Of a stretch of DNA of 64,000 nt, positions 8,449 through 56,495 are shown piece after piece (position 1 is the stretch's first letter; each line of letters begins with the position of its first letter). The stretch lies in contig JASXTE010000016.1 in the NCBI GenBank assembly GCA_030280995.1, positions 23,444,501 through 23,508,500 of the forward strand, given 5' to 3'. The position numbers and the translations under genes are program-made. The DNA comes from Hemileia vastatrix (taxonomy: Eukaryota; Basidiomycota; Pucciniomycetes; Pucciniales; Zaghouaniaceae). The notes below the pieces were generated by a model. It was not told the origin of the DNA, did no database searches, and saw only the letters and a list, made by a program, of their open reading frames with translations.

Positions 8449-8488
8449 CACCACAGAAAATTTGGGGGGGTATTGCTAGCAATACCCC
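8449..8488 (+). repeat. Left terminal inverted repeat of giant element
   Basis: It begins CACCACAG, has an A/T stretch and a run of seven G, and ends in a palindrome centred on ATTGCTAGCAAT. It differs from the right repeat only in the A/T stretch (AAAATTT against AAAAAAT). Confidence 0.92.
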
Positions 8489-8727
8489 TTATTTAAAAAT
8501 GTTGGGAAGTGGTTGGAAAGCTGTTGGAAGGCTGTTGGGAGTTCATTGTGAAACCAGATTTAAATTAATTGGACAAAGATTTGGTAATCAGTTAGACCTA
8601 GGTTCAACCAAAATCAATCACAGGTTTCTTGGAGCTTGGTGATTACTTTGATTTTGAGCTGAGAACAGATTGAGCAAAGCTTGAACATATCACTTAAAAT
8701 ATCATAATATTCACTTTCCCATCTTGT
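8489..8727. other. Left subterminal region of giant element
   Basis: Four GTTGG-containing words occur within 8510-8545 (GTTGGGAAG, GGTTGGAAAG, TGTTGGAAGG, TGTTGGGAG). CACTA transposases bind short subterminal repeats, so these are candidates; this is inference. No gene seen before the gypsy A insertion. Confidence 0.4.
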
Positions 8728-8732
8728 GGAAA

Positions 8733-9503
8733 TGTCACGCGCCACGTGACAATCGAGGCAAAAGCAGCTCATTAAATCAATAATATGGAGTCCTAAATCT
8801 ATATTCGAAGCACAGAAAGAAATTCTCCATAGCAACTGCTATTCCCCTTTGTGTACTTACTATTTAACTGCGCTAGCCTAAAATCTAAATCTAAATTAGT
8901 CAATCTCCCAATAGGTTGCCTTAGTCTCCTTTTCAATAAGCGAGGCACAGCGCTAGGATCAACGTAATAGTACAGTAGTAGTTTTCATTAAAGTTTTGTT
9001 AATTAATTAAAAAGGGGTAAATTGAGCATGGACGGATATTTAGCAAAGAGGGTCTAAGTGTATGTTAGTAATGGTCAATGGTATGGGAATGGTGCGATGA
9101 AAGGGAGGTCAATGCAAGGAGGAACAAAGGATATAAAAGGGTTGGTTATTTGGTTCGATATTCCTTAGAATTAAATTATAAAACGTATTTACATTAATAG
9201 TGGTAAAATCTTTAAGTTAAATCATTGTTATTGTATCTTTCTTTTATCTTCTCAATATTCATTTCTAAATCCTAAATCTTTGATTATTGAGTTTCCAACC
9301 CTTCGTGAGATCTTAAGAATTCCTATTACCTTTGAAACTATTTTATAATTCTTCTTGAACGAACCTCGAACCTGTAGCTCTTACTTTGAGTGACCTTTGA
9401 ATCACTTCCTCGAATCATTCCTCTGTGCTTTGAAGAAGTTTCTAAATCTCTCATCTCACTTCCAGGAACATCCTCAACCTTGTGCGTAGGTCGTCCGGTG
9501 ACA
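8733..9503 (+). repeat. 5' LTR of element A
   Basis: 771 bp, starting TGTCACGCGCCACGTGAC and ending GTCCGGTGACA. It matches the solo LTR at 17361-18140 over its full length and the truncated LTR at 15987-16353 over its last ~365 bp. It contains a TATAAAAGG-like word near 9132. Confidence 0.9.
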
Positions 9504-9574
9504 GTATAATTTAATTCTCCGTAGTTCTCATTCTTTGCACTACTACGTCTTTTTAGGTGCTTCTAAAATTTTAA

Positions 9575-10764
9575 ATGGCACCTGTTCAACGCACTCCTCC
9601 TACGGGCGCTACTACTAGAGCTCGCGCTAGAGGCAGGCCAACAGCCACAAGGTCTGTTTCTCGCACTCACTCTTTGGAACCACTCGACCTTAGGGAACGG
9701 CAAAATTCAGTTCAATCTGTAGAAGACATCCCACAAGATTTTGAGGATTCTAGTGATGAAGAAGAAGGAGAGGATACAATGCACGAGGCACCATCCGCCC
9801 CAGCCAATGACCCTTCTGGTCAATCCTCAGAACCTGGACCATCTAATTCTCTGGAAGATTTCATGAGACTTTTCATGAAAACCCTTTCAAATCCAACGTC
9901 TTCAGAGGGATCTAAGTTCAAAACTACTTCTATGAATTCTCCTGACAAATTCGACGGAGATCACCCCGACAGATTGCAACCCTTCTTGCAAACCTGCAAG
10001 CTACTGTTCCATAATGACCCTTGAACCTTTAACAGCGACCGATCAAAGGTTGTTTACGCTTCTTCATTCCTAGCTGGGAAAGCAGCAAGATGGTTCGAAC
10101 CTTATCTGCTCATGCTTTCTTCGACAGAAACCCACTTACTTATCAATAATTGGGAAAAGTTCAAAGACCAACTTTTTACGTTGTTTGGGGACCCTAATGA
10201 AACTGACAACGCATAAATTGAACTTGATTTTCTTCGCATGAGTGATAATGGTAAAGCTTCTGAATATATCTTGAACTTCAGAGCACTTCAAACTCAAGTA
10301 GGTTGGAATGATGCTGCCCTTAAGTATCATTTCAAGAAAGGACTTCCTTCGAGGATTCTGCATCAATTAAATCTTCATAGTCAGAAGATGACTACTTTAA
10401 CAGATTTAATGGATTGAACCCTTGAACTTGACGGCGTTTATCAAGGATGACTTCAACATTGTTGATATGCCAACAAATCTCAAGGCCTAAATTTTAAATC
10501 GGGACCTTCTTCGCACCCACGACCAAATCAATCCTCCTTGACTCAATCCAAACCCAATAAGGGAAAGGATAAACCTCGACCAAAAGGCTTGACCCCAGGC
10601 AATATCAGCAAAGTACTGGATCCTAAAGGGGAACTTAAAGAAGCTGAGAGGAAGAGAAGAGCAGATAATGGGTTATGTATGTATTGTGGGGGTAAGCACA
10701 AGTTGGAAGACTGTGTAAAATTGAAGGAAAGAGAAGGTACTAGTTCGAAGTCAAAAAACCAGTA
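9575..10764 (+). pseudogene. gag: gag of element A
   Basis: It starts with ATG at 9575 after a 71-bp leader. The N-terminus is Arg-rich, followed by an acidic stretch (SSDEEEGEDT) and a capsid-like region. Stops interrupt the frame at 10022 (TGA), ~10214 (TAA), ~10417 (TGA), ~10448 (TGA) and ~10464 (TGA), yet the same frame continues to TAG at 10764. Near the end is a CCHC-type zinc knuckle with short spacing (CMYCGGKHKLEDC), which binds the RNA genome in active relatives. Four of the five stops are explained by CGA to TGA. The product was the structural shell protein of the retrotransposon particle. Confidence 0.85.
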
Positions 10765-10776
10765 GATAGTTTACTT

Positions 10777-13700
10777 GTGTGCAAAGCAAACTATCTTATC
10801 TCTCCCAGTGCACAGAACCTCCATGTCTTAAGGACTGGAGTTGCCTTTAACCACTTGAGATTCATTCTTTTTAAGGAGGATATCCCCTTCAGTTGTCTTA
10901 TAGACTCTGGAGCTTCAATTTCTTTTGTTAGTCTATCTTTTGCCGAGAAGCTTCAACTAACATTCACAGATATTGATCGAACTCCAATCTATTTGGTCGA
11001 ATCAGAGGAACCCAAATATTGGGTAAGTAAGAGAGTTTTATGGTTTTTCAACTTTCCGAACTTTCCCCCCTTTGAGTGGGAATTATCAGTCTTGGACGCC
11101 CCAAGGATGGACAATACCATTCTTGGAAATGACTTTTTAACGCATTGGAATCCCAAAATTGATTGGACTAAGGGATTGATCACCCCACGCTCTAAGTATA
11201 TTTCTGATTCTTCAATGCAGGTCAATAGGGAGTTAAACAACCCGCCTGACAACGTCCTGCTAGAGGACAAATCTCTGCCAGATGACTTGCAAGCATCTGT
11301 ACCTTCTTTAAATGAGCAATTGGCTAACCCTTCTAGCTCAATGACTTCACTCGAAGAGGATTTAAATTGTCTTGAAGTAATCGAATTCTGCTCTCTCAAT
11401 ACAGGTATCTCCTCGACAGATTCTCTCAAAGATGAAGAGGACGACCAAATCAATGTTGAAGACATTAAATCAACTCTACCAGAAATCTATCACGATTTCC
11501 TTGATGTTTTCTCAATCCACAAGGCCGATAAGTTACCACCTCATCGACCCTACGACTATCAAATAGAGTTAATAGGCCCAGTACCTCTGGCAGGTCCCGT
11601 TTATTCTTTGTCGAAGGGCAAATCTCAAGTTCTTCGAGACTACATTGCAGAGAATGTAGCCAAAGGTTTCATCAAAGCTAGTAAATCTCCAACCGGCTCC
11701 CCTGTCCTCTTTGTAAAAAAGAAGGACGGTAGTCTTAGGTTGTGTGTTGACTATAGAAAGCTCAACACAGTCACTAAGAAGAATGCATATCCTGTTCCTC
11801 CTATGTCATTACTTCTTACTCTTTTCAATGGTGCTAAATTCTTTTCTAAAATTGATCTTAGAGGCGCTTACAATCTGATTTGCATCGCAGAAGGTCATGA
11901 ACCACTGACTGCAATGCGCACTAGATTTGGTAGTTTTGAATATTTAGTTATGCCTTTTGGATTATGTAACGCACCTTCAACTTTTCAAACTTTTGTTAAT
12001 GACATCTTCCAAGATGTTGTCAAACAATTTGTTGTCATCTATTTAGATGATATTTTAATATTCTCGAAAACATTAAATAAACATATTCATCATGTTCGAC
12101 AGGTCCCAAATCCTCTTCGAGATCATGGTCTCTACGCCAAGCATAATAAATGCGAATTCCACCTCAAATCTATTGATTTTTTGGGTTTTACGTTTTCCAC
12201 TGATGGTTTAGTCATGGACAACAAAAAGGTCCAAAAAGTCCTTGAATGGCCTGAGCCCAAAACTGTTAAATCCCTCCAGGGATTTTTGGGTTTCGCAAAT
12301 TTCTATAGAAGATTTATTAAAGATTACTCTAAAACTATTTCCAATCTTACTTCTCTTCTTAGAAAAGACATTCCTTTTGTTTTTACTTCTACAGCACGAA
12401 AGGAATTTGAAGCACTAAAAACGGCGTTCACCACAGCCCCAATTCTTCGACATTTTGATCCTTCTGCTTTGACAATAGTTGAGACAGATGCAAGCGATTA
12501 TGCTATTGCAGGGGTTATCTCCCAATTAAATCCTGAAACAAAATTGTTTCATCCTGTTGCTTTTGAGTCACGCAAACTCATTGCAGCAGAATTACATTAT
12601 GAAATTCATGACAAAGAGCTTTTAGCTATTATCCATTGTCTTAAAAAATGGCGTTCTTTTCTTCTCAGCCTAGATAGTCCTTTTCAAATTTTAACAGATC
12701 ATAATGCTTTAAAATACTTCATGTCTTCCAAAGTGTTAACCAGGCGTCAAGCCAGGTGGGCTGAATTTTTGTCGGAATTTTTCTTCTCTATTTCCTATCG
12801 CCCAGGTAAAAACTGCATTGTCCCAGATATCTTGTCACGTTGGGACGACGTTTACCCACAGCGGGGGGACACATTTTCTGACAAGAACCCAGCAAATGTG
12901 CAATCAATCTTCAATGAATCAATGTTAACGACTCATCAACTTAATTCGATGACAATTCAATCTTTTCGAAATCCACTATCCAACATCCTTGAAGCTCAGT
13001 CGAAGGACAAATATTGTTTAGGGTTAAAAGACAAAATACTCTCGAAGAATGGGGCCAAAAGATTTAGTATTGAATCAGGTCTATTAGTCTTCAAAGGTAG
13101 AGTAGTCATACCCGACAACAATGAGATAAAATTATGGATTTTCAACAGTCGACATGATTCTCCATTAGCTGGTCATTTTGGGGTTGATAAAACCTACCAG
13201 TTAATAGCAAGGGATTTCTTCTGGCCAGGTATGACCAGGGAAATCAATGCCTATATAAAAGCTTGTTACAAATGTAATAGGAATGAGGCTCCCCGTCACC
13301 GGAAGTATGGGTTGCTTCAACCACTTCCTATTCCCTCTAAACCTTTAGAATCTTTATCGATGGATTTCATTTCTCAACTTCCTTTTTCTAATGATTTTGA
13401 TGCTATATTAGTAATAGTAGATAGATTTTCAAAAATGTCTATTTTCATTAAAACCACTACTACTGCTACAGCAGAAGATTTGTCAAAATTGTTTCTAGAA
13501 TATGTATTTTCATAACACGGCTTACCAAATGATATTATTTCAGATAGAGGCTCATTGTTTGTATCCACATTCTGGACCCAACTGTGTCGACAACTCAATA
13601 TCACGAGGAACCTCTCCACGGCCTATCACCCTGAAACCGATGGTCAAACAGAAAGAGTTAACCAAATCCTCGAACAATATCTTCGAATGTATGTCAGTTA

Positions 13701-14409
13701 CCAACAAGACAATTGGACCACATGGTTACCACTGGCCAAATTTGCTTATAATAACTCGACTCATTCTTTGACACGACAATCTCCCTTCGAAACCATTTAT
13801 GGACGACATCCTCGATTCAACTCAATCCATGTAGGAACTAATCATCCTGTGGAACATTATCTTCGAACTATATCACGGCTCCAAGAAGAACTTAAAAAAA
13901 ATTTGGAATCAGCGATTTGAAGATACAAGGAACAGGCCGACAAACATCGACAATCTGCTCCTTCCTTTAAACCAGGCCACAAAGTATGGCTCGACGCACG
14001 AAACATTTGAACAACATGACCATCAAAGAAACTGGCTGAAAAGCGCTTGGGACCATTCTAAATTGACTCTGAAGTCTCTAAAACTGCATTTCAACTCAAG
14101 TTACCTCCTAAATGGCAGGCGATTCACCCTGTTTTCCATGTATCTCTCCTGGAACTGGCTCGAGAAATATACCCGGGCAAGAACCAGCCCCCTCCGGAAC
14201 CGGTCGAAGTAGAAGATCATCTAGAGTGGGAAGTAAGTCGTATCATTGATTCAAGAATGCGCAAGGGGAAAATTCAATACCTCGTGGAATGGGAAGGCTT
14301 CCTCAATGACTCAGACAAAACATCCTGGGAACCAGCCATCAATGTTTCTAACGCCCCTGAACTCCTAAAATCTTTTCATTTGAAATATCCTTTAAAACCA
14401 AAACCTTAA
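10777..14409 (+). pseudogene. pol: pol of element A with C-terminal chromodomain
   Basis: The main open part reads 912 codons to TAA at 13515. In order: retropepsin (LIDSGASISF, ~10900), reverse transcriptase (FFSKIDLRGAYN; MPFGLCNAP; YLDD at 12040-12051), RNase H (ETDASDYAIAGVI), and integrase with the HHCC zinc finger (~13160-13290), first acidic residue in SMDFI, second in SDRGS and glutamate in DGQTERVNQ. Past the stop the frame runs on, broken by stops at ~13918, ~14008, ~14017 and ~14058. It ends in a chromodomain (VSRIIDSRMRKGKIQYLVEW, ~14230-14340) that targets integration to chromatin marks in this clade (Tf1/sushi-like chromoviruses). Inactive as it stands. Confidence 0.93.
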
Positions 14410-15377
14410 AATTTCTTTTATTTAAATTTTTTTTTCTTTTTCTTTCTTTCTTTTTCTCGTAAAAATCTAAAACACCTCTTAAATTTCTTAAGCCTTGTTT
14501 TCTTTTTTTTTTCTCCTCTTCTTTTCTTTCTTCTCCTTCTATAAAATTTCCTCCAAAACCAACTAAAAATAAAATCAAAATTAAAATTAAATAAAATAAA
14601 ATAAATAGAATAAATATAAATAATAAAATAAAATAAAATAAATAGAATAAACATAAATAATAAAATAAAATAAAAAACTCTTAAATCTCTCTAAATATTT
14701 TCTTTCTTTTCTTTTTCAATTCTCTAAATACATTCTTTCATTAAATTTACAATCATCTTTAAAATTTTCTTTTCTAAAAATTTATTCTTGCTTTAAAATT
14801 TTCTTTCCTTTGAACCATCAAATCTTGTACGACACGACCATTTCCTCGAACTTAACTTCAACCTCTAAATCTCCCTATAAAAATTCTTTGAACAAATGAT
14901 TCTTCTTTTCAAATTCTCTTTAAATTCTAAATTCTGTTTTTTCTTTTTTCTTTTCTTTCTTCTTCCTCTCTTTTCAACTAAAATTTCCTAAAAAAATCAA
15001 TCAACAACTTTTCGCAAAAAAAAAAATTCTTCTTTCATTAAATTCTCAATTCAACAAACTCATCTCAATCACCAACCGTTTCTTTTTCTCTCTCTTTTCT
15101 TACATAAATTTTTTATTTTAAAACTTAAAACTTCCTTCAACTAAATAAATTTTTCTTTCTTTATTTAAATTTCTTATTTCAAATTCTAAAAGCAAAATTT
15201 TACTTAAAACTTTTTTTTTTCTTTTTCTCTCTCTCCCAAATCTTATAAAATTAATAATATTCACCTACAATAAAAAAAAAAAAAAATAAAAAAATAAAAT
15301 AAGACTAAAATACAATTCTACTTTTCTACTTCTTTACATCTCTCTTTTTTATTTCAAATTTTTTCTTTTAATTTTTC
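14410..15377. repeat. Pyrimidine-rich low-complexity tract of A
   Basis: Nearly 1 kb of C/T-rich and A/T-rich simple sequence on the plus strand (CTTTTC, AATAAAATA runs). Minus-strand frames here are composed of Lys/Glu or Phe/Ile runs and are not genes. Confidence 0.7.
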
Positions 15378-15989
15378 TCAAACCAATCTTTTCATTTTCT
15401 CCAAAACTACCCTTAACTCCTTCCTGCATTTGTCAAATACCTCCTCCTCTCCTACCGGAACCACCTCTCCAATCTCCAAGAGTTCCTCTTCCACGTCGAA
15501 GGAAGCAGAGTTGATAATTGTGTCGACCTCCCCACACAACTCTTCTGCGAACTTTACTCGTCAACCTTGACGAGGTTTCTTTGACCACACCCGGTCCAGT
15601 GTGTCTTCAGGCTCTTCAACTACACCCGTGACCGGAGGGTTTGCCTCAGTTGGTAAAAGCGGCGCAGGCTCCCCAATCGGGTCTTCAATGGTATTTGATG
15701 TCTAAACAAAACTCATCAGTAACCTCATTGTTAAAAAACTTACCTCGAAGATGGGGTCAGGTTCTAAGAATAACCTTGGCGCCACCTCTACCTCTGCTTC
15801 TCTTTCCTCCTCGTCGTCTTCAATGACCACCCGTTGTTTCTTGGGTGCCCGCCCTGGAACAGGGACTTCATCTTCATCTTCCTCCACCAATTTGTCGACC
15901 TCTTCTTCAACACCCCGCTTCAAACTCATGGCCTGGTTTACCCAGGTTGTGATCTCATTGTTGTGCTCCTTATCATTCTCCCCCACCAG
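15378..15989 (-). pseudogene. Antisense intron-containing gene fragment in the 3' region of A
   Basis: Exon 15989-15744 encodes GENDKEHNNEITTWVNQAMS, then an acidic and basic stretch (EEDEDEVPVPG, PKKQR). A 42-bp GT-AG intron (15743-15702) leads to exon 15701-15378, which ends KMKRLV and TGA. The frame is preserved across the intron. One TGA at 15561-15563 stands where CGA is expected. The frame stays open upstream until it merges with LTR sequence, so the 5' part of the gene is missing. It may be a normal antisense accessory gene of this gypsy family, as in element B, or a captured host fragment. No domain recognised; a PKKQR nuclear-localisation-like patch is visible. Confidence 0.5.
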
Positions 15990-16353
15990 GGTTGGGTATT
16001 TGGTTCGATATTCCTTAGAATTAAATTATAAAACGTATTTACATTAATAGTGGTAAAATCTTTAAGTTAAATCATTGTTATTGTATCTTTCTTTTATCTT
16101 CTCAATATTCATTTCTAAATCCTAAATCTTTGATTATTGAGTTTCCAACCCTTTGTGAGATCTTAAGAATTCCTATTACCTTTGAAACTATTTTATAATT
16201 CTTCTCGAACGAACCTCGAACCTGTAGCTCTTACTTTGAGTGACCTTTGAATCACTTCCTCGAATCATTCCTCTGTGCTTCGAAGAAGTTTCTAAATCTC
16301 TCATCTCACTTCCAGGAACATCCTCGACCTTGTGCGTAGGTTGTCCGGTGACA
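15987..16353 (+). repeat. Truncated 3' LTR of element A
   Basis: It matches 9139-9503 of the 5' LTR with few differences and lacks the first ~400 bp. The breakpoint falls at a shared GGGTTGG word. It is followed by the duplication GGAAA. Confidence 0.88.
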
Positions 16354-16968: not shown

Positions 16969-19900
16969 ATGTCAAGTCTCAGATGTTTTGAACAGTCCTC
17001 AATAACAATCGATCAAATTTATATGAATGTAATTTCAAGATTTCAAAACTCACCAACCCCCACAATTTTACAGCGAGGCCATTTGAATGTTCATATTTTT
17101 GGACTATTTGAGGAAAGAAAACCAGCCCTTGTTGGTAATCTTTCTCAAGTGCAGAGTAAGCACATTGGACCACTATTGGGTTACATTTGGTCTGGATCTC
17201 ATCATTTAAACCAAAGAAGTGCCTTGAATCCTATGAAGCCTTTCTATTTTCATGCTTACTTGGTTCCAGTTTTTGGTAATCAGTATCAAATTTGGGGATG
17301 CCTCTTTTCTTCAAGTACACTAATCAGTCTTGCTAAAGAAGAATTTTCTTCTGCTCAAATTGTCACCGGACAACCTACGCACAAGGTCGAGGATTTTCCT
17401 GTAAGTGAGATGAGGGATTTTAGAAACTTCTTCGAAGCACAGAGGAATGATTCGAGGAAATGATTCGAAGGTTACTCGAAGTAAAAGCTATAGGTTTGAG
17501 GTTCGATTCGAGAAGAATTATAAACTAGTTCCAAGGTAATAATAATTCTTAAAATCTCACGAAGGGTTGGAAACTCAATAATCAAAGATTTAGGATTTAG
17601 AAATGAATATTTGAGAAGGTAAAAGAAAGATACAATAACAATGATTTAACTTTTTAAGGTTTTTACCACTATTTAATGTAAATACGATATTATAATTTAA
17701 TTCTAAGGAATATCGAACCAAATACCCAACTCCTTTTATATCCTTTGTTCCTCCTCGCATTGACCTCCCTTCCATCACAGCATTCCCGTTCCATTGACGA
17801 TTACTAACATACACTTAGACCCTCTCTACTAAATATCCGTTCATGCTCATTTTGTCCCTTTTTAATTAATTAACAAAACTTTAATGAAAAAAAACTACTA
17901 CTATACTATTTCGTTGATCCTAGCGCTGTGCGTCGCTTATTGAAAAGGACTAAGGTACCCTATTGGGAGATTGACTAATTTAGATTTAGAGTTTAGGCTA
18001 GCGCAGTTAAATAGCAGTACACAAAGGAAAATCGCAGTTGCTATGGAGAATTGCTTTCTGCGCTTCGAGTATAGATTTAGGACTCGATATTATTGATTTG
18101 TTGAGTTAATTTCGCTTCGAGTGTCACGTGGCGCGTGACACAAATCAATTTATGTCTGATCCTGAACTACGACTCCACTATCTTTTTTAATATCCCGCAT
18201 GTAATTTTTGAAGGCTCTTTCCAAATATCTCAGAGTAGTCAAGATTGGAAATCTGATCAACTTATCCAAGGAATCAAAAAAGTTCTCAAAACACATCAAC
18301 TTCAAGCAATAAATTTTATGATTGACAATGAACAAATGTTAAAGGAAAAGTTGGATATCATGTGGAGGAACCAGGACAACCATTGGCTTAGAACTGGATT
18401 CAATGACTATAATGATCAGTTTCCTAACAATCAATTAACCACTGAAGGAAATGGGTCAATACTTGCTGATGATATGGGTTTGGGAAAGACGCTTTCAACT
18501 CTTTCTCTTATAAGTGCAACTCAAAGTGAAGCAAGACAATTCCAGGTATTGGAAAATCAAGAAGGTATTAATCGGAGTTCAGCCACACTGATTATATGCC
18601 CCCTGGCAACACTATCAAATTGTATCAATGAAATAAATGTGCAATTTGAAGATAATGAGCTTCCTTTCAAGGTTCTTTATGGGAAGGATTGTCAAAATAC
18701 TAATGTCAATGAGCTACAGGACACTGCTATTGTTTTAACAACCTATGAAACAGCTTGCCTAAAGATGTCAAAAAATCAAAGCCAAAAAAAGATACCGGTG
18801 ACTCAAAAGCTCTTTTGGTATAGAGTTGTTTTAGATGAAGCTCAGTTAGTGCCCATTTCTATATCTAAAACTTAAAACTTAATTTTTATAATCAATTTTT
18901 ATAAATATTCTTTTAGTTACATTAAAAATCCTTACTCGCAGAGGGATCAAACAATATTTGACTTGGAATCCCAACACCGACTATTCTTGACTGGAACTCC
19001 ACTTCAGAACAGGCCCACTGACCTTCAAAGTCTCATATTTTTTCTTAGAATCGAAAAGTGGCAAGAAGACTGGTTATGGAAGAATTTCCTTTTTCCAGGT
19101 TTGCAAAAAGGAAAGGCTAATTCTATTAAATCAATCAATCACTTAATGAAAGTCATAAGCCTACATAGAACAAAGGATGCAATTTTGTCTCTTCCAAAAA
19201 AGATTCAAAGGGGGATATCGGTTCAATTAGCAGATCCATGGAGGTCTAACCTTGATGTGCTTCAAGAAGGATTCACTGAGCGATATGGGCCCTCCAGAAG
19301 CACTGACATCCCTTGGGACTCATCTGAGTTTCTAAGAGAGCTGATGATTTTAAGAAAATTCTGCAACCATCCAATCTACAAAAATCTGGATGAAACTCCA
19401 ACTTTTAATTTCACCTGGCAGCATTCCGCAAAGATTTGTCATCTTATAGGCCACTTAAAAAACTTTTTTTCTGGTGAAAGGGGTATACATTTTCCAAAAG
19501 CTGTTATATTCTCCAACTTTGCAGACTTTTTGCAGATGTAAGTGATTCTATAATGAATTGTTTTACAAAATTGTGTTGGCTTATTAAAGACAATTTTCTA
19601 ATATTTCAAAATAGAATAAAAATGGCTTTAGATGACCACAATATAAGGTATACCCAGCTTATGGGTAAACTCAGCAGGACAAAGCGAGACAAAAATATGC
19701 ATGAATTTGATTTTAATAAAAATTGCCAAATTTTGGTTGGAACGATTCAGGCTGCAGGAGTGGGTATAGATCTCAAGTGTGCTCAAAATGTATATATAAT
19801 GGTGAGCTCAATGTCTTTTATTTCATATTAAGAAAAAAAATATTAAATTTTTTATATGTTCAATGTTGAAATAGGAGCCAAATTGGAATCCAGCAGTTGA

Positions 19901-20182
19901 GCAGCAGGCTGTTGATTGGCTGTATAGGATGGGGCAGCAAAATGAAGTAAATGTTTTGAATTATTTTGTACAAGGAAGTATAGAATTCAGCATGTATAAG
20001 ATTCAAAGGGAAAAAATGGAGCCAACAATGTAAGCCAAATTTCATTTCCATAAATTTTAATGATAATAGTAATCATTAAAATTATGTTTTTGTTTTCAAG
20101 GCTAAGTGTCCCAAACAGTGGAAATGAGGAGTATGAGTGTGCAAACATATTATTAAGGGAGTTTTTCAATCACTCACATTAG
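16969..20182 (+). pseudogene. SNF2-family (Rad5/Rad16-like) DNA-dependent ATPase, split by a solo LTR
   Basis: Exons 16969-17360 plus 18146-18844, 18917-19537, 19615-19801, 19875-20029 and 20101-20182 sum to 2,136 nt, exactly 712 codons with the stop. The only break is the solo LTR at 17361-18140 and one copy of its CAAAT duplication. Motifs in order: I (LADDMGLGKT), Ia/Ib region (LIICPLATL), II (LDEAH, the His codon split by intron 18845-18916), III (FLTGTPLQN), V (QAAGVGIDL) and VI (QQAVDWLYRMGQ). These define a SNF2 remodeller/translocase; the short protein without a RING finger fits cargo-type copies. It acts on DNA or chromatin in the nucleus. Start ATG at 16969 is chosen because no upstream frame is continuous. 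Expression as an intact protein is unlikely. Confidence 0.9.
17361..18140 (-). mobile_element. Solo LTR of the element A family inside the ATPase gene
   Basis: 780 bp, the reverse complement of the A-type LTR, bounded by TGTCACCGG and GCGCGTGACA. CAAAT is duplicated on both sides (17356-17360 and 18141-18145). Removing it with one CAAAT makes the SNF2 reading frame continuous. A solo LTR arises by recombination between the two LTRs of a full element. Confidence 0.95.
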
Positions 20183-21255
20183 AGGAAGAAAGAATTTCAA
20201 GGAGAGCAGGTAAATTTATGTGATTTTGAGGATTTAAAAGTCTGAGTAGTTGAGGATTTAGAGATGCAAGATATAAGGGAGAATAACAGTCATTCGGCAA
20301 ACCCCAGGGGACATGAGAAGGATTAAGGTTAGGGGATAATGTTGAAACCAAACTGATTATTTTGTACAAGGCCAAGTCCTTTAGCACACTTCCAGAGTAG
20401 GTTGAAGTATCTCAAATATCAAAGTGTTGTTGGTCAAGATATTTTGCAACTTTAGAAAAATCTTCAGACCTCCATTGCATTAAGATACATCTTAACAATC
20501 CATCATTATCAATTTCGGTGTCTGAACAACACTTGATGTTTGTGAAAAGGTTGTGATAAGCTTCACAATGTGGAAGTTGTTTAAGAAGTTTAGTTTGATT
20601 AACTGAATTCTAAGAATTTTTTTTATTTGAAATAAAGGTCGTAAATAAAAACGGTTGAAAAAAAGGGGATTTTCATACTTTTTTTTATTCTCTATTTATG
20701 CTTTCTCATTTTGATTATTTCTTGAGAGCTATGAGAATCTTTCCCAAGTCTTAATTTATTTGCATGACCTAAAAACCAACGGTGAGGAACTCCCATTTGA
20801 GTTGAGTGAATTGGATATACAATCAAATTATTGGTTTTTAAGGCATTGTCCCAGTGTTTAATGAGAATATTTGCCAAGACCTGGTTCCATTTGTCAAACC
20901 AATTTAGGTTACAAGCAAAAGTTGACCCTGGGAAACCGCACATGCAAAGGTGGTCAATAAAAGATTCACGGAAAATTGGTAGAAACTTTTCCGAAACCGC
21001 TGAATTTGATTCTGGATGAGGTAGTTCAAAGGCGATGTTGCATGAATTCATGTCAAGTGATGAAAATCTGTCTAATTGCTCTTCAGTAGAATTTTGTTTC
21101 CATCCATTTGATTCTGGTGACATATCCAAAAGTGAACGACAAAAATTGTGTATAGATCTACAAAAGTGAGAATTGAATGGAGGTAAAGTCTCATTAAAAA
21201 TTCTATTAAGTGTTTGTGTGTTTGTGGGCAGGTTTCCATGAAGAAAGTAAGAGCT
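20166..21255 (-). pseudogene. Unrecognised gene, minus strand, converging on the ATPase gene
   Basis: A first exon starts near 21255 after a CCCTAG-like acceptor and reads through to a stop at 20692 (~185 codons, e.g. IDHLCMCGFPGSTFACNLNW, FDKWNQVLANILIKHWDNAL). A second exon starts near 20600 after an AATTCAG acceptor and reads QTKLLKQLPHCEAYHNLF to a final TGA at 20166. It holds one internal TGA at 20412-20414, where CGA is expected. The donor of the first exon is not clear (a GTATG lies beyond the stop), and upstream exons may exist. Composition is that of a soluble globular protein; no domain was recognised. It ends 17 bp inside the 3' end of the ATPase gene on the other strand. Confidence 0.5.
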
Positions 21256-22343
21256 ACTAGGGTTTATAAAGAATTAGATTAAGAAAGTGTTCAATTAAAT
21301 TAAACAAAGAGGAAGGATAAATTGTTGAGCTCCAAAACTTTATGATCAAAGTTGATTTAAGGAGAAATATCACAAAAATTAAGAATAAGAAATATTTCAA
21401 CTTTATGGCATTATAATATGCATAAATTATATTTTTATATGCAATTTGAACTCAAAAGGAATGGTATAAAATTAAGAGAATGATTATGTGATAAAAGCAG
21501 ACTCATTTGAGAAACAGATTTTTTTTTCTTTTCAAAAAATTCTTCCACAAAAATAATTTGATAAATGTGAGGCTATTTTCATTTTTTGATTACCAAAAAT
21601 TTTTTTTTGGTCCAATATGATAGTAATACATATTCCATTGAGTAATTTTTTTTCAACATGAATAAATAGACTAGAGTGTCACTTCATCACATTAATGTAT
21701 AAAAATTTATACAAGGTTTCAGATTTTTTGTAATGCTTTAAGGTTTACACTTTTGTAGCATCTATTATTTGAGTATTTTTGATTTTTTCTTTATGGAAAA
21801 TTCTACCTAGTACAGACCAATTTTCAAAGTGAAAGAAATATTTTTGTGATTGTTTTTTACAAAATATTAACCTTATTTTTGGTTTTAACTTTGATTTTTG
21901 GGGTAATTTTTAAAATAATTATGTTAAAAATATGGATTAATTTTCTTATAGTCCATAACTAAGAATTTTTATCAAAATCAAATAATTATAGGGTAGTTAG
22001 ATATAACTCGGAAGGCAATTGATAGAAAAATAATTAAGATGCTTGTGCATACAATAGAATTTTTTCTATGATAGAAAATAATTTGATAAACATACATGCA
22101 TTGTTGTACAAATGCAGAGAGTATACAGAATACAAATAAAGTAGACTGCATAACTTTTAATAAATATATAATTTATCTGATTAAAAATGAAACATTTAAA
22201 ATTAAATAATTTCAACACATATTCCATCATATTCTTTTGATACAAAAATGTAGCTTATATTAGCTAGTGCCTTTCAAAAAAAGGAATACCTTAAATCTGT
22301 AACTTCCAATAGCTAACTTATTCCTACAATTATCACAATTACA
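21256..22343. other. AT-rich intergenic spacer
   Basis: No convincing gene or repeat; it may contain the divergent promoters of the minus-strand gene and the transposase. Confidence 0.35.
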
Positions 22344-40554: not shown

Positions 40555-40575
40555 AAAAAAATAAAATAAAAAAAA

Positions 40576-40607
<32 letters not shown>

Positions 40608-40740
40608 ATAAAAAATAAAAAATAAAAAATAAAAAAAAAATAATAAAAATAAAATAAAATAAAATAAATAAATAAAAATAAAATAATAAAATAAATAAAA
40701 AAAAATAATAAAATAAAATAAATTAATTAATTAAATCAAA
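40555..40740. repeat. A-rich simple-sequence tract
   Basis: Runs of AAATAAAA and AAAATAAA for ~185 bp; length is likely unstable between copies. Confidence 0.9.
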
Positions 40741-40854
40741 ATTATTATATTTCTCAGTTTTATTTTTTAGTTTTCATTCTTTTTAGTTTTATTGATTTAG
40801 TTTAGACAGGAAACAGGGTCTAGGGAAACTCAATACCTATGGGATTTTACTTCA

Positions 40855-42668: not shown

Positions 42669-42681
42669 ATTGGAGGGAGGA
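42669..42681 (+). other. Polypurine tract of element C
   Basis: TTGGAGGGAGGA directly precedes the 3' LTR; the same GGGAGGA stands before the 3' LTR of element B. Confidence 0.85.
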
Positions 42682-43788
42682 TGTGGTAGCCTAAAGTTTA
42701 GTACGGCACCTAAATAAGTAAATGGAGTTATTACGGCATGCAAGATTGGCGTTATTATTTTTATTTTTTATATATAAAAGGGTTTTATTTAATTTATTGG
42801 AGTTTTAAATATGAAGAAATTGGTCACGAGCGAATGCCTATACGAAAACAATTTATTTTACGGAGAAAACTTATTTTTACGGTCTGAAAAATTTATAAGT
42901 ATTAAGTCGAGTCACTCAAGAACCTTGAGAAATTTTCCCAGAATTTTTACTATTTTTCTTATATTTTTAAATGAATTTTAAAGTTTTATAGAAATATTTA
43001 CGTTTTCAAAAATTACTTAACTTTGATGAATTTTCACAGGGTAATTAGAGCTGCGCAGACTACGAAAATTAGTTTGGTATGTAAAGGGGAAGTAGCTCTA
43101 TTATGTGTAATTTTTCTAGATTTTTTATTATAGTTTTAAGGTTCTAAATTGAGTCCGGAAGTCCGGACGGACTCCGTACGGACTCCGTACGGGCTCTGGA
43201 TTGACTCTGGAAGAGCTCTGGAGGGGAAAACTTAGGCACGTGACTAGGAATACTTAAGCGCTTCTCAAACTCGAAATTGAGAGGGGGGACACATCATACA
43301 GCTTAATCATTAACCACCACAGTCTTATTTTTTATTACTCAACAAATTAAATAAATTTGTAATACCCTTATAACATTATTATTTTTTACATAACATTTCA
43401 GAAATACTATTCAACAGTTTAAATAACACTTCATACAGGGTATCTTTAGAAAGGTCTTCATCGCTGGGACTTGATTATTGCTGTCTCATAAAAATTTAAA
43501 TTATTATAAAAACATAAAAGTCAATCTTTACAGATCTTTCACTGGTACACCTTAATTGTTGTTATCAGTATTTCTTTTCTCAACAGCCACTTTCTTTTAA
43601 TCTCAATAAGCGTTAATTATTTTAGAGTTTCATTATTTTATCAATCGGATTCAAGTAGATTGGTTAGCTTAGTGATTTAGAATTCCCATTTTGTTATTTT
43701 TATTGGAAGGACGGGGTTTTCAGCTAAATCCACATATCTCCTCCGGATTCTGCTTACAGCAAGGCGACTGTAAGAGTTTACCTTACCA
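42682..43788 (+). repeat. 3' LTR of element C
   Basis: 1,107 bp, almost identical to the 5' LTR apart from the 44-bp tandem-repeat difference at ~43163 and a few substitutions. TAACGA follows. Confidence 0.95.
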
Positions 43789-45946
43789 TAACGAGAGTTC
43801 AGTATCACAATTTACTTGAATTGGCTAGAGATAAAACAGAAGAACTTGTCAAGATCCTTAACAATAATCCTTCTCCTTCATATTTATCTAACCCTTGTAA
43901 TGACTTACTCCAATATGTGAAAAGCCTTGAAAAATGTATGTTTTCACTTTTTTTGTCTCCTTTTAAATTAGTAGATAAGATTATTAATATTTTTTTTCTT
44001 CATATATATTTGTAGCTTATGAGGAGGGTATGATTCCTCATGATGAAATCATTGTAATTAGGGATGATGATGAGACAGATGAACCATCAGCTTCAACTTC
44101 TAAGGAAAATCTTGAAACACCTGTTATCTGCTCCAAGAAAAAGAAATTATCCCAAGGCTCCTCTTTTGTTTGACATATTAAACCGGCTTCTGCTAATGAA
44201 TTTTCTGATGTATCAAATAATAAATCTCAAAAAAAAGCAAAGGCTTTGATAATGAGTATATTCTTGTTTCTTTTTTTTATTGTTATTCTTTTATCTTTAA
44301 AATTCTATCATATAACTCTTTTATTGATTACATATTGTACTTTTTATCTTTCTTTTGATATTTTGTACCAGAAACTCACCTACTGTAGATTTTCCCATCC
44401 ATAAACGCCCTCTCCCTGATGAAGATGATGAAAATAGCGATGATGAACTGCCAGAATATGAAGCTATGCTTGCTCATCAAAACAAGAAAACTTTAAAATC
44501 TTCCTCAAGACATGACGATATGTTTGATAAAGATGATGATTCAAACCACTCATCACCAAATTCCTTCATTTCTAAGAAGCAATACCCATCACCTCCTAAA
44601 TTACCTACTTTTTCCACTTTGAAAGCTTCTCTACCAATGAAATCAACTCCAATCAAGATATCAAAAAAACCTCTAACTTATTCACCCTCAGTTCTAAAAG
44701 ACTCTGATTTGCAGGAGGAATTCTGTAAAATTCATAATTTTTATAAAGGTAGAATCAGCACGGCAAAGGTCCTCAGGTCGTGGTTGGAAATTGTTACTCT
44801 ACTTGAATTATGCTCTTCTACTTCTTCCCAAGAACCCATGTTAAATATTCCAATGTTTACTTTTCATTGGGAAAAATCTTGTGGAGAAGATTGGCTTTCA
44901 AAACTTACTGAATTATGTAAGTTACATTAATTTTTAGTCTTGACTTTGTTCTTTTACTTATTTTTTTTCCTTTTGTAGCAAATATTTTTTTAGAGATTGA
45001 TAGCTCACAGCTATGGGTACTCAATAATATTGATTTCAAAAAAATGGAAGATTTATGTGATCCTGATGGTTTAAATACTGAAATTCTTTCCTCAACAAAG
45101 AAAACAGATCACCCTGAATCCAATCTTATCCAAATGCTCATGAGATTAATGATCCCAAGTGACCACTGCCATTCTTCATGGGTATCTCTTATATCATCTT
45201 CACTTAATCTGACCGCACATGAATTCAGCCAGCTTCCATCACATCAAAATATTAACTCAGATTGTCCAATTGAACGTGGTCTTCAGCTTCTAGCTCACCT
45301 TTCAAATCTGAAGAGTCCGATTCCTGATGGCTTAGAAGTTGGTCCCACTGCACTTCAAACCCGTGATATATCAATGTCAACTCTTCTTCAAATCAGAAAT
45401 ATTATCATTGATATAATTATTTCAATTATAATTCTTAAATCAAAATATTGTGCTTCAACAATATCAAGTGGCAAGACTAGCAAAGCTCAAAAATCAAGTC
45501 AGAAAAACGAAAATACTGATCTGACTATAATGAGACAGAAACAAAAGGCTGCACTAAACAAGATAAATTCTGAATACTCCCACCACCGATATCAATCTTT
45601 CACATTCTATATAATTGATGGTGTCTGTGGCTTATTTCTGAGCTCTCAAGATCATAGATTAGCTTTAGCAGCTGATTGCTTGGAGGTAATATCAGAAATT
45701 AAGTTTCTTAATTTACATGAAAAAAAAAATCATTTTATGGAAGAATTAATTTGGAAAAATTTAAATAACTATATTTTAACATTAATAAAACCTTTTTTAG
45801 GAAAGTGTGATCCATTTCCTTTAAAATTTGATACCCCAAGTCCTCCAGGAAATGCTAGGGATATTTTTGCAGATTTTCTTAATCACTGGAGCTCCATTCA
45901 GCCAGTATCACCTTTTTTTGCTAAACATAGCCTTTCAATAAATTAA

Positions 45947-46744: not shown

Positions 46745-47951
46745 TTAATTATCAAAATTTTTTAGATTTGTCTTAACATTAGATAAACAATACTTTTCTG
46801 AATTTATTTCTTCCTCTATTAAGTCATCTCTTTTCAAAAAAAATCTCAAAGCACTAATCAAAGATTTATACCTATCTTTTTCTTCTTTAATTTCCAAGTA
46901 CTCTGAAAGTTCAAAATCAAAAACATTAAGCTTTTCTATAGCATGAAAAATTCTAGTGCTGATTTGAATAGAAGAACCTATCCTTGTGAAGCCATGAATT
47001 TCGTGACATCTTGAGGTAAAATGCCTCAGTTGATTGGCAGTCCATAACGTCACTGTTATTCCATTAGTTGCTTCAAAGTTAATTTTACTTCGAATTTCGG
47101 GAAACATAAGTTCTCCACCTGTTTGTCATGGTTGGGTTTTATTGTACTTCATATGAATGGTATTGTTTTCTGTATCTTTAGGAAAAAATATTCCTAAAGT
47201 ATACTCACTTGCATCCTTATCACGATGAACCTCATTGGAGAACCCATTACCATTTGCTCCAGATGTCCAAGTTAAATTACTAGCAAACGGTACACCCTCT
47301 TCTTCACTATAAACTTTTGAAAATCCAGGAATACCAAGTTTTTCACAAAGATTAGTTGCCTTGTTGTACTTTACATATGATATTTTTTTAAAAAAATATT
47401 CAAAGTACATTGCAATCCTCTTCATTCTTTTTTATATTCATCTGTGCATACAATCTTATCAGTGTATTCATCTGCAAGTAAAAGCATTCAAAAATTCAGT
47501 ATTTCAATTAAAAAAGTGATACTTACGAATATATAAAGATTTCTTCCTATCTAAAATAAAGCCACCACCAAACATTTTTCCAAAAACACCATCTCTTTGA
47601 TGATAAACATTATTTGTAATTTCATGTTCACAGTAAGAAAGATCCTTAATGCATTGCACCGTAGCTTCTAACATATCTAGTTCTTTGAGCTCATGAATTT
47701 CAAAAGTCTGCACAAGAACATTAGGTATTAAGACACCTTTTGGTTTATAAATACTACAACCAGGAAAAAAATTGTAATAATTATTGCAATCTGTCATATT
47801 ATTTACATAAGATTGTGCGTAGAAATGTGGCTTCTTCCCATTTGTATCCATTCCAAGAGCATTTACAAGTTTCATTCCAGCAGCAATGTCTTTCGCCAAC
47901 CTATTGTTAAAGTTCTTCCCTGGACGTTTTTTTTTTCAAATTGTTACTCAT
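46745..47951 (-). pseudogene. TET/JBP-like 2-oxoglutarate Fe(II) dioxygenase
   Basis: Exon 1 runs from ATG at 47951 (MSNNLKKK) to a GT donor at 47526, exon 2 from 47471 to the stop at 46745, ~380 residues. The second half has the oxygenase core: the metal-binding HxD (EVHRDKDASEYTLGIFF), a GGELMFPE strand and the distal His with following Thr and Arg (LRHFTSR...FTRIGS). This pattern is that of Tet-like fungal dioxygenases, which oxidise 5-methylcytosine in DNA. Breaks: TGA at 47126-47128 (CGA expected), and shifts in a T10 run at ~47926-47935 and a T6 run at 47428-47433. Expanded TET/JBP genes in basidiomycetes are known to travel with KDZ transposons; here the partner is a CACTA-like element. 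Catalytic residues are present, so a corrected copy elsewhere could be active. Confidence 0.75.
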
Positions 47952-51682: not shown

Positions 51683-51943
51683 CACCACACAATATGGGGG
51701 GCGGACTTGCTAGTGAGTCCGCAACCTTGGACCCAAACTCACAACAGGTTGAACACACATTGAGCTATTGATAAAGGAACCATACAATCAGGAATGAACA
51801 CCACTCAGCAGAACAGTTTTAGGTGGGTGTTCAAGTAGAGTTCAGTTTGGGTTCAGTATGAGTTCAGTCTGAGTTCCATCTGAGTTCCATCTCAGTTCAG
51901 GTTGAGGACTTGCTAGCAAGTCCACCCCCTATATTGCGTAGTG
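51683..51943. mobile_element. Non-autonomous CACTA-like element, 261 bp
   Basis: Ends are ~38-bp imperfect inverted repeats starting CACCACACAATATGGGGGGC on the left and, read inward from the right, CACTACGCAATATAGGGGGT. Both carry a GGACTTGCTAG palindrome. AGA is duplicated (51680-51682, 51944-51946). The plan (CACNAC start, G-run, TTGCTAG palindrome, AGA duplication) is that of the giant element. The interior is a GAGTTCAGTCT-like direct repeat (51838-51905), as in subterminal transposase-binding arrays. No coding capacity. Confidence 0.85.
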
Positions 51944-54900
51944 AGAATAATAATAAAAATTTAAAAAAATTATAATAAGTATTCTTAATCACAATTTTTG
52001 AAAATTCTCTAGTAAAATTCATTATAATATATCAATCATTTATTACATTATATGTAGTTTCATCTTGAAGTAGTGATGGGCAGCCTTGAATTTATGTTAT
52101 GAAAAACAAAAAAGTTAAGAAATATATAGTTATACTAATGATAAAGCCAAAAATAAAAATACTATTATAAATTAATAAAATAAAACTACATAAATTTTAT
52201 TCTGCTCTAATGATGGAAGGGTACTATGTATGAATTTCCACATGTTAAATCTAAACCCGCTTTAAGGCTAGTTTACAGGTAGAGCTATTAAGTTTTCTTA
52301 AATTCTAAAAATAAATTATGCATTTTACTAAATATTTTTTTCTTGTTTTCTTTCCAAAGTTGCTAGAGTTGCTTAATTAATACTGTTATCTTGATTGTAA
52401 GATATATAATTTTTTTTGAATACATGATTTATTGTTTCAAAAATTATATTATAAAGTTAAATCATTTATTTCATTTTCTAAAGCTTCATTGTCAAAGACA
52501 CCACTCCATTTTCAATTACTTAACAAATATATAAAATTTGATAGTAAAATTTTTAGAATTTTCTTTTTGAGAGGGTCAAACTATATTGTGAAGATTTTTA
52601 TCTAGAAATTCTTGTACTCTAAAACCAAATAATTTTCTCCCTTAAGTAAGCCATTTCAAAACTATGAAAATATAAACAAGAATATTAACTTATCTTATTT
52701 TTATTTTCTTTACTGAAATTTTTAGTTCAATCCCTTTTTTTATATGACATTAGTATAAAACCATGGTTAAATGCTACTATATAATTAATTTTTATTATAT
52801 ATATATATATATATATATATGAAGAATTTAGAAGGTCATCCTTTTTTATTTACTTGAATAAATGGCTCAATTATAATTCCCAACACTTATTAATCTTTCC
52901 CAAACTCAATAACAAATTTCTCATATGAAATATTAGCTTCTAATATAAGAAGTTTATCTATAGATGATATTCAAAATGTGATTTTCCTTTTTAGATTCAT
53001 CTAAAATTAAACAAAAGGAGAAATCATGCATATGTGTATAAATGGTAACCATATGTTACTTTGAGGATTGTGAAATTCACTCATCAGAATGGTTTAAGTA
53101 TTAAAATAAATTGAGGTCATTATTTTCTAGTATTTGAATCTAATTAGGAAATTATTCTAAAAATATATTTTAATGTGTATCATGTTTAAAAAGTTGGAAA
53201 TATGATTTTTGAAAATTGTGAGTTTCTTATGAGATACCAAGCTTTAGTTTACATTGTTTCAAGTAGAGTAGAATTTTAGTATAAGAAATTGAAAGCAAAG
53301 TACCATTATCAGATTTTAACCGTGTTCTATTTATAGAATGATTACATAACATTAAACATTATTTAAATCAAAAAGGTTTAAAAGATATTTAGAATTTTAC
53401 AAAATTTCACCATTTATTAATCTTTGATTTGAAAACCAACTATGATATACACTCACTAGAAATAAGCAATCCCAATTTTAACATAATTTATCAATCCAAA
53501 AATAATGAGTCAATTAACATGAAAATATATATTATTTGAAAACTAAATCTCTAGATTTAAAATATGATGCTTTAATGAAAAATTTATACAAAACTTTAAT
53601 GCAATGAACTCTCTTAAAAAATTCAAAAATAGAATATCAAAACAAGTAATTTCTGCAAAAAAAACTACTAACTATTGTAGATAAAGCATAAAAATAAGTC
53701 ATATTTTTTAAAAAAATGATCTAACAATATTTATTTTTGTTAAAAAAATCAAAAACATTGTTAAGTTTGCTTGTTATAATAATGTTAAAATCCACTAAAC
53801 ATTATCTAAAGGTGGCAAAATATGTCAAAAATATGTTGAATTTTGTGAGCCAAAAATCAACAATTTTGTATCATTTCCTGTTGTGCTATGACATAAATTC
53901 CACCCTTTTTATCTGATTCTTCCAGTATTACTTTGCTATAATCACTAGTTTTCAAGTTAAAATTTACAAATGTTCATTATACTTGATAATATGAAAATCA
54001 ACTCAAAATTTTATAACTACAAAATAAGATTTTGAAACTCCTTCTTTCAATCAATATTTGAAGAAATTTTTAGTTTATTTGAGTAATGATTTTGAGAATA
54101 ACAAAAAATTTGAAATTCACAAGGACTTATTTCCAGAGACTATAATTATTTACTTGTGTAATGCATGAGCTACTTATCAATGATGTAAAACATCAGAAAA
54201 GTAAGTTATAGTTATAAATCTACAGATTATACTGTGTCTGGTATATATATCTTCAATAAATCTTTTAAACTTATCTTAACCTACATACCACACAATAGAA
54301 AATCATTATATTAAAAAATGAAAAAATTCTATGATAATATCATAAAGAATGATAACCATGGATTGATATTCCATAAAATTGGTTAATAAAATTTTAAGAG
54401 AACCTAAATCAGTTTTCTTTCATCAAAATATATCCTTTTTGTCCTTGTAATTTCTTCCAAACAAATTTTTTGAAACTTGAATCTATATATCTAATACCAA
54501 AACCACTATTAAGTTCCCTCTTAGACTTTTTAAGCAACTATATATATATAGATATATTAATTATTTATCAAAAATTGAAATAAAGAATAAAAACATAATT
54601 TTATTTACCTTTAATTATTTAAATATAGAGTATTTTCAGAATGCATTGTGGTTACTTGTAAAGGTTAGAAGATTTGAAGTTGGATTTATGAGTTTTTAGA
54701 AGGGAAAATATTGTAAAATTCTTTTATAAATATTTATTTCATAGTTTCAAATGTTGAAATCTACAAACTAATGGGATTTAAAATTATATTGAGATTTAAA
54801 ATCTGTTTTCTACTCAAGTAAAATAAAATAAAATGATGATATCAAAATTGAAATTAAGTTTAAACCTTTGATATGCTCTATCTTCAATTTTATTGATAGT

Positions 54901-56455
54901 GCATCAAAAATTTAATAATATTTTTTTCCTTCATCACTTTTTACATAAAAGATAGTTCTATCATTTTATGCATTAAAGATTGCTTATATAAAGTTAACAT
55001 CTATGTCAACTGTTTATGACTATTAATCTATATAATAAATTTTTTAGAAGAAAAAATAAAATCAGTATATACTGACTTTGAAATTATTTAATTTAAAATA
55101 GTTTACAGGTAGATAATGAAGGGTGATTTCATTTTTGAATATGAATTATAGAAGTCTTATTTTGTCAATTTTAATTCTTTTTGAGCTCAAATGTATCCAC
55201 TTCAACTTATGTAAGAATAAAAATTATTTTTATTGAAATTTACATGAGAAAGTACGCCTATTATTCAAAATCAAACTTGCTCTAATGGTGTTTTTCAATC
55301 ATTATTTCCATTCATAAAAATAAAAAACATTTCAATTTGCTGATGTTTTAGTTTTTGATATCCCCAAGTTTATATCTAAGGTTTACTATTCACAAAATTA
55401 TTAAAAATATAATTTTTGAAATACATGATAAACTTGAAAGAGAGGGGGCATTAAATTTTTAAAAAATGAGTTCTGAATTCAGGATGGATAGTATTTTTTC
55501 TATTTTCACAAATGAACAATTTTTTGTTTCAATTAATCCAGAAAAAAATTTTGTTGTAAGCATATTATATTATATTTATTTTGATTTTAAATACTATATT
55601 CTCAAGATTTGTGTTTAATATTTCCTGTGAAAGTTAATGTTAATGTGAATTTTAAGTAAGCTTGAAGAAATTTAATCAATAGGCATATTGGATATGTAAA
55701 AAAATATTTTGCTCCAATCTTGAATCATCCTGGGCTAAAAAATATGCCGAATAAGGTTTTTGTGGGTCAATTTGGATTTAAGTAGGATTAAGTGAGGTTT
55801 AATAAAGGACAGATAAAAGGCTAAATTCATTACTAGTGACTTTTTTCTCAAAATAGTTATAAAATATGTATCATTCTGGAATCAAGCTTCAATAAAGTTG
55901 AATTGAAACAGAGATAATTTCTAGCAGCACAACACCATATTTACAAAGGTGTACAATACCTCAAATATTACTCATAGTATATGAAGGAAAGGAATCTACA
56001 AAATTCACATTTGAAATGAGGATTTATATTTTGAATTTTAAATTGATAAATGGAATATTATTTTCCAATTTAAATATCTATTAGTAATTTTACCAAAAGT
56101 TTTCAGTAATCAGATTGAATTTTAATGGTATTTTATTGTAGATTAATCATTTTGATGAGCCATTTACTCAAAATTACTGGTTTTGGTTCTAATATTCCAT
56201 GTGAAATTCATTACGAATCTTTTTGAAAGTGAATAGTTGACATATTGGATATTCAAAAGCTTATGTTAGATCGAAGGGAGCTCAACTCATGATCAAATTA
56301 GGATTTTGCAAGATCAAACTGTGATCAATGTAGGTTCATCTTGAGCTCAATTTGTGACAAATCTTTGACTAAATGTTAGGCCAAAAAATTTCCTACATGG
56401 TGATGATGTGTGCATAATTCAGGCATAGATTTGTGGCTCAACAGAGTTCAAGAAA
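51944..56455. other. AT-rich right arm of giant element, no gene seen
   Basis: About 4.5 kb with no frame above ~60 codons. A (TA)n microsatellite lies at ~52796-52820. Near the end, 56285-56345 has several GATCAA words that may be subterminal repeats. Confidence 0.4.
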
Positions 56456-56495
56456 GGGGTATTGCTAGCAATACCCCCCCATTTTTTCTGTGGTG
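56456..56495 (-). repeat. Right terminal inverted repeat of giant element
   Basis: Reverse complement of the left end at 38/40 positions; starts (read inward) CACCACAGAAAAAATGGGGG and contains the same ATTGCTAGCAAT palindrome. AGA follows at 56496-56498. Confidence 0.92.

Follow-up and report, generated by a model that had tools for sequence, protein, structure and literature searches.

The window analyzed here, a 64,000-nucleotide stretch of the Hemileia vastatrix assembly GCA_030280995.1 (contig JASXTE010000016.1, positions 23,444,501 to 23,508,500), holds what we take, with a probability of roughly 0.7, to be a decayed copy of a giant (~27 kb) EnSpm/CACTA transposon that is mobile as a unit and carries TET and SNF2 genes as a counter-silencing module. 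The ends of the element, its target-site duplications (TSDs), its spread as a whole unit, its gene content and its decay at TCG trinucleotides were all observed in the copies compared below. Counter-silencing is our best guess for the most likely role of the predicted TET and SNF2 proteins.

Borders, target duplication and empty site

The original prediction placed an insert between two 40-bp inverted repeats flanked by AGA, and these borders proved exact to the base. The terminal inverted repeats (TIRs; 8449-8488 and 56456-56495) are identical at 38 of 40 positions and span 48,047 bp. A chance origin of the ends was rejected, since the 40-base end pattern occurs 1,942 times in the genome against none for a reversed control, and within the window the left end has no other inverse match better than 28/40. 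When the left flank, minus one AGA, was joined to the right flank, the product aligned without a gap at the junction to positions 38900-39160 of a second gypsy retrotransposon in the window (element C, or gypsy2), a stretch that belongs to its pol gene, and the predicted restoration of a gypsy pol gene was thereby confirmed. The long terminal repeats (LTRs) of this outer, recipient gypsy are 91.9% identical. CAC..GTG termini (CACCACAG) were found in the window copy, in all five copies fetched from elsewhere in the genome and at 20/20 right-end loci, and a 3-bp TSD borders each of the six copies (window plus five fetched) for which both sides are visible. Together with the Tnp2-type transposase described below, such ends and duplications place the element, to judge from these sequence features, in the EnSpm/CACTA superfamily, as originally proposed.

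The inner 22 bp of both TIRs form a perfect palindrome, and GTTGG/TTGGAA repeats are visible by eye in the left subterminal region. In plant CACTA elements, subterminal repeats are bound by a second element protein.

Copies across the genome and movement as a unit

The host assembly comprises 747.6 Mb in 791 contigs. Searches with the 252 bases at the left end of the element returned 1,241 candidates; 40 were scored, and each matched the entire query at 98-100% identity. The 252 bases at the right end returned 1,580 candidates, with 40 scored at 92-100% identity. Five copies (40 kb each) were drawn from eight left-end loci, a sample biased to well-kept left ends. All five ran from TIR to TIR with the gene regions and gene order of the window copy, so that other copies of the kind that the original prediction had suggested looking for do exist (27.0-37.7 kb). 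Their TSDs were AAT, ATA, TTA, AAA and AAT, and their lengths (37.7, 35.7, 27.7, 27.0 and 28.7 kb) differed mainly by nested insertions, the cleanest copy measuring 26,975 bp. Identity was ~98-99% among the five and ~95% to the window copy.

Marker counts were made with 40-base patterns, allowing up to two mismatches for the TIR and up to three for the genes, and reversed-pattern controls gave 0 each. The transposase, TET and SNF2 markers occur 1,395, 1,398 and 1,325 times, the SNF2 pattern containing a mutable CpG, and these similar numbers indicate that the genes travel with the transposase. That genes besides the transposase belong to the element, previously an inference, is thus borne out by the near-equal marker numbers and by the constant order in the five fetched copies. 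If all 1,395 copies were full length (26,975 bp), they would occupy 37.6 Mb (5.0%) of the assembly, an upper-side estimate, and the family may therefore make up about 5% of it. With 2 differing bases in the right TIR, the 1,942 TIR matches may include both ends and would then correspond to ~970 pairs versus ~1,400, ~1,400 and ~1,300 transposase, TET and SNF2 markers; these numbers do not point to a multitude of short derivatives bearing the same ends. Most DNA transposons carry little beyond a transposase, and their short defective copies usually outnumber the full ones.

Linkage of the markers was assessed on one contig (C2) using exact matches irrespective of the orientation of the partner marker. 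Downstream of 38 left TIRs, SNF2 was found at 29, TET at 33 and both at 27 (shifted null: mean 0.32, maximum 4). For 51 transposase markers, SNF2 lay upstream at 38, TET downstream at 45, both at 36 and additionally a left TIR at 25; for the 36/51, the shifted null had a mean of 0.33 and a maximum of 2. Ends that enclose the transposase alone, the observation that would have spoken against a common unit, are therefore not the pattern on this contig. Two positions within the element are occupied by 831-bp miniature inverted-repeat transposable elements (MITEs; TSDs TGT and TTA) in both copy cA (L029-L032) and copy cE (L045-L048), which lie on different contigs. On C2, the transposase-to-TET distance was 12,330-12,406 in 29/45 cases and 13,209-13,229, i.e., ~830 bp longer, in 6/45. 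Because copies at other sites inherited one and the same insertion, the element must have transposed in its entirety once the insertion was in place. Some copies also lie inside other copies (L002 and L003, whose flanks match element positions 21211-22689 and 27068-28527). The right flank of a further copy (L011) matches the right gypsy flank of the window (208 bp, 86.5%, inverted), so a second copy landed in the same gypsy family.

Later insertions and native size

Window self-comparison, LTR edges and comparison with the other genome copies revealed four later insertions of ~21 kb within the span, namely a chromodomain gypsy (gypsy1), a solo LTR of the same family, gypsy2 and a 261-bp CACTA-type MITE. 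Each has its own TSD and none is present at the same place in any of the five fetched copies, which identifies them as later arrivals. The native element is thus ~27.0 kb, 48 kb is the span, and the gypsy genes inside it are not part of the element's gene set.

Two other accounts of the locus can be weighed against these data. A true 48-kb element, all of whose content including the gypsy genes moves as a unit, would match the end-to-end span of 48,047 bp; the gypsy parts, however, each have their own LTRs and target duplication and are missing from those positions in all five fetched copies, so that a single element of this size is refuted for the copies seen and retains next to no probability. 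Equally improbable is that a host locus was spread by segmental duplication and bears inverted repeats by chance. No point in its support was found, and it is refuted for the copies seen by the 3-bp duplications around 6/6 copies, by the 20/20 right-end loci (including the window) that end at the TIR, by the nesting of some copies within others and by flanks that are alike in only one pair, both members of which lie in related gypsy DNA.

Genes of the element

The element's predicted gene set is a Tnp2 transposase, an SNF2 ATPase, a TET/JBP-like dioxygenase and about three genes without an assigned family (Table 1). The original prediction of at least five genes besides the transposase therefore holds insofar as the element bears extra genes, but the gypsy genes drop out of that set; the dioxygenase and the ATPase had not been named, nor had the broken state of the predicted genes in the window copy been mentioned.

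The Tnp2-type transposase was confirmed by Transposase_21 matches of 37.7 bits for the window piece and 52.2 bits for copy cA (cut-off 28.6). Its motifs are VDWF (23331-23360), GDIPA (23615-23638), CSFC (23678-23695), MH..LG (23897-23923) and GEQVN (24899-24922), of which the D, GD, CSFC (CxxC) and MH..LG (H..H) are conserved with a database relative (P0002); the last E (GEQVN/GERVN) lies outside the reach of P0002 and was placed by eye. The transposase piece had a single protein-database relative (40%), and a scan over viral contigs gave no match.

In the SNF2 gene, both lobes were detected, with LADDMGLGKT at 18462-18491 and VVLDEAQL at 18825-18848 in the window, and the top solved relatives were the Sulfolobus Snf2/Rad54 helicase and Rad5. 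Its frame is uninterrupted in another copy (L029:1130-2314). The TET gene matched PF20515 in two window pieces (E-values 4.4e-12 and 5.2e-6) and in copy cA (2.6e-21). It carries an HxD (47213-47236; HLD in cA, HRD in the window) and a distal H (47009-47035), and HxD rather than HxE is a PU-type feature as far as this residue pair is compared. In the window, this gene is disrupted by a stop codon (47126-47128) and a single additional base. Single-sequence AlphaFold modeling of a TET piece gave a mean pLDDT of 36.5.

Gene D has uninterrupted frames elsewhere (L030:5291-5722, with more up to L030:7732) and a single protein-database relative (93%). Pfam at its cut-off gave no family for gene D, gene E or the minus-strand frame. 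A 122-aa frame at 49903-50271, whose lone Pfam match was below cut-off, is not claimed as a gene.

Palindrome array

Nineteen AT-rich palindromes of 22 bp lie between genes E and D, and their pattern gave 37 two-strand matches against 0.06 expected. Spacings of ~102 and ~85 bp mostly alternate; three intervals measure 130-132 bp and one 190 bp. Copy cD, the cleanest, likewise has 19 palindromes. Information content was at least 1.4 bits in 17/22 box columns and below 1.1 in 75/80 flanking columns, a contrast that is partly built in as the boxes were chosen by pattern. The array is probably a candidate binding-site array for a dimeric protein, which perhaps is one of the element's own proteins without an assigned family.

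Decay and C-to-T mutation

To judge from its reading frames, the copy in the window is dead, with all six predicted genes either interrupted by a stop or split; uninterrupted versions are found in other copies. Across 14 coding segments, the five fetched copies had 0, 4, 2, 8 and 3 stops and the window copy 12, with its SNF2 gene and gene D additionally split by LTR elements. Private changes, i.e., those unique to one copy when sorted against the other five, included 213 C-to-T (or G-to-A) changes in the five copies, 123 at CpG (12 expected) and 80 at TCG (5 expected from base content), and 260 in the window copy (CpG 112, TCG 70). TCG enrichment of C-to-T changes in this repeat family is thus about 11- to 16-fold. 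The observed/expected CpG ratio of the cleanest copy was 0.34, compared with 0.10-0.14 for the outer gypsy and 0.56 and 0.67 for the nested gypsies. A C-to-T decay concentrated at TCG fits silencing by cytosine methylation, with which these sequence patterns would be compatible. TCG hypermutation has been described for Pucciniomycotina repeats, with transposon TET genes suggested as a counter (Kojima 2025, PMC12730594, in the parts consulted). Both this type of decay and the large size of the present genome suit a rust host.

Possible role of the TET and SNF2 genes

In the mechanism we propose, the Tnp2-type DDE transposase would act on the 40-bp CAC..GTG ends and move the element by cut-and-paste, leaving 3-bp duplications, a catalysis suggested by its motifs. 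From what is known of their families, the SNF2 protein would open or remodel nucleosomal element DNA and the TET protein would oxidize methylcytosine within it. Neither CpG methylation nor the C-to-T mutation it brings might then stop the element from being expressed and moving. A broader picture, in which a self-protecting giant CACTA combines a chromatin-opening and demethylating module with phased palindromes and its gene-bearing copies, rather than short defective ones, fill up to ~5% of a fungal genome, is more tentative, and we would put it at somewhat less than an even chance.

Several observations weigh against this explanation as a whole. The element is CpG-poor even in its cleanest copy and is still mutating at TCG, so TET does not fully protect it. 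Constraint is weak, with a ratio of nonsynonymous to synonymous polymorphism (pN/pS) of 0.72 among copies and 0.66 between the window copy and the others, and in two segments pN/pS is far above 1 on few changes; the corresponding per-gene dN/dS values are too noisy to read, being based on few changes (17 and 5 for SNF2b, 8 and 0.7 for gene E3). The TET pieces found no relative in the protein database and no credible solved relative in PDB sequence searches. Finally, the palindrome boxes are slightly more variable among copies than their spacers (47/418 versus 103/1520, P 0.004) and so give no sign of recent constraint.

Alternatively, the two genes could help transposition itself or set when it occurs, through chromatin access or an excision tied to replication, rather than provide escape from methylation. 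Their order is kept together with the transposase and SNF2 proteins act on chromatin generally, which would suit such a role; it is hard to see, however, what a TET domain would contribute to DDE transposition, and the TCG decay marks the element's cytosines as targets, leaving this reading unlikely. Slightly less likely again is a passive-cargo role, in which transposition carries TET and SNF2 along and they decay while bringing the element no benefit. In its favor, four of the five fetched copies contain stops, as does the window copy, and pN/pS is not far below 1, but decay after insertion happens whatever the use of the genes, one of the five copies is stop-free in all 14 segments, and the TET, SNF2 and transposase markers are near-equal in number. 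TET frames of rust transposons are, moreover, described as mostly undisrupted (Kojima, PMC12730594, as far as consulted). Counter-silencing thus remains our preferred role.

Transposon-borne TET enzymes still await functional characterization according to a recent review (PMC13297926, relevant part). Here, a family of more than 1,000 copies in one genome has predicted methylation-undoing and chromatin-remodeling genes riding along with its mobility enzyme, and, with open and broken TET frames and TCG decay side by side in that genome, the question of transposon TET versus methylation becomes testable on copies.

Comparison with known systems

Other classes of large or TET-bearing elements were considered. 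Plavaka was rejected, as PF18759 reached 23.2 bits in the window piece, below its cut-off of 26.3, and Transposase_21 scored higher; in copy cA, PF18759 was not among the matches at E up to 0.05. Among 29 window and 16 copy frames (short or unspliced frames left out), there was no polymerase B as in Maverick/Polinton, the integrase matches belonging to the nested gypsies, and no tyrosine-recombinase captain family as in Starships. The latter are large multi-gene fungal elements of the Ascomycota that use a tyrosine recombinase. The present element resembles them in being large, fungal and rich in genes, and differs in its DDE-type transposase, its inverted repeats and its very high copy number.

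The closest likeness is to TET-bearing EnSpm elements of rusts, reported with CAC..GTG ends and 3-bp duplications in Puccinia striiformis; other rusts have EnSpm elements related to these (PMC12730594, in part). Shared features are the ends, the duplications, an EnSpm/Plavaka-like transposase, TCG decay and a TET/JBP gene with HxD between the TIRs (here in 5/5 fetched copies and at 45/51 C2 transposase markers). The present element has an SNF2 gene, which the main text of that source does not mention, and a palindrome array, which the parts consulted do not mention for them. The KDZ elements (Dileera, Kyakuja, Zisupton) are likewise fungal DNA transposons carrying TET/JBP genes, but Zisupton-1_PGr makes 8-bp duplications and belongs to another transposase group (PMC12730594, in part), and with 3 bp in 6/6 copies and Transposase_21 here, KDZ was rejected. 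Enlarged EnSpm/CACTA families of 16-20 kb with 4-5 open reading frames in the red alga Chondrus crispus (cited in PMC6431247) are also large CACTA elements with extra genes, yet they are smaller than 27 kb, belong to another kingdom and have no TET or SNF2 named in the part consulted. By domain content, a parallel can be drawn with DNMT5 of basidiomycetes, an SNF2-methyltransferase fusion that joins remodeling with cytosine methylation; DNMT5, however, belongs to the host and is a methylating enzyme (PMC13297926, in part), whereas the SNF2 gene of the present transposon neighbors one for a putative eraser. Rust surveys include CACTA among their elements (PMC12210899 and PMC10067951, as far as consulted). 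Titles and abstract beginnings in the open-access literature yielded no 27-kb CACTA with SNF2, which is no proof of absence in print, and as far as these searches show, the size, the SNF2 gene, the palindrome array and the dominance of gene-bearing copies are new.

Feature coordinates and minor observations

Table 1 Features of the CACTA element and of later insertions in the window
Feature	Position	Strand	Remarks
Left TSD (AGA)	8446..8448		Directly outside left end
Left TIR	8449..8488	+	Inner end is 22-bp palindrome GGGGTATTGCTAGCAATACCCC
gypsy1, chromodomain gypsy, later insertion	8733..16353	+	TSD GGAAA; LTRs 98.4% identical
Predicted SNF2-family ATPase gene	16969..20181 (approximate)	+	Pfam SNF2-rel_dom and Helicase_C; interrupted by solo LTR in window copy
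Solo LTR of gypsy1 family, later insertion	17361..18140	-	TSD CAAAT
Frame without assigned family	20692..21273	-	Longer in some other copies
Predicted Tnp2-type transposase gene, putative start	22344..25720	+	Window copy has four in-frame stops and one frame change
Gene E, protein without assigned family	26146..27806 (approximate)	+	Five stops in window copy
Palindrome array	28023..29959		Units like ATTAATTTYGATYRAAATTAAT
Gene D, protein without assigned family	30994..45946	+	Interrupted by gypsy2 in window copy
gypsy2 (element C), later insertion	31240..43789	+	TSD AACGA; LTR pieces 99.4-99.8% identical
Predicted TET/JBP-like 2OG-Fe(II) dioxygenase gene	46748..47935 (known frames; 5' end not fixed)	-	PF20515
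261-bp CACTA-type MITE, later insertion	51683..51943		TSD AGA
Right TIR	56456..56495	-	
Right TSD (AGA)	56496..56498		Directly outside right end

The LTRs of gypsy1 are unequal in length (5', 772 bp, 8733-9504; 3', ~366 bp, 15988-16353), with outer edges and TSD intact. Both the 261-bp and the 831-bp MITEs are non-autonomous and show no similarity to the giant element by BLAST; their end layout (CACCAC.., a G run and a GCTAGC-centered palindrome) is as in the giant element. Gypsy2 contains tandem repeat arrays at 39402-39766, 40835-41490 and 41539-41968, whose units measure roughly 47-96 and 72-77 bp; another tandem array, of 22 bp, lies near the window start (1436-1753).

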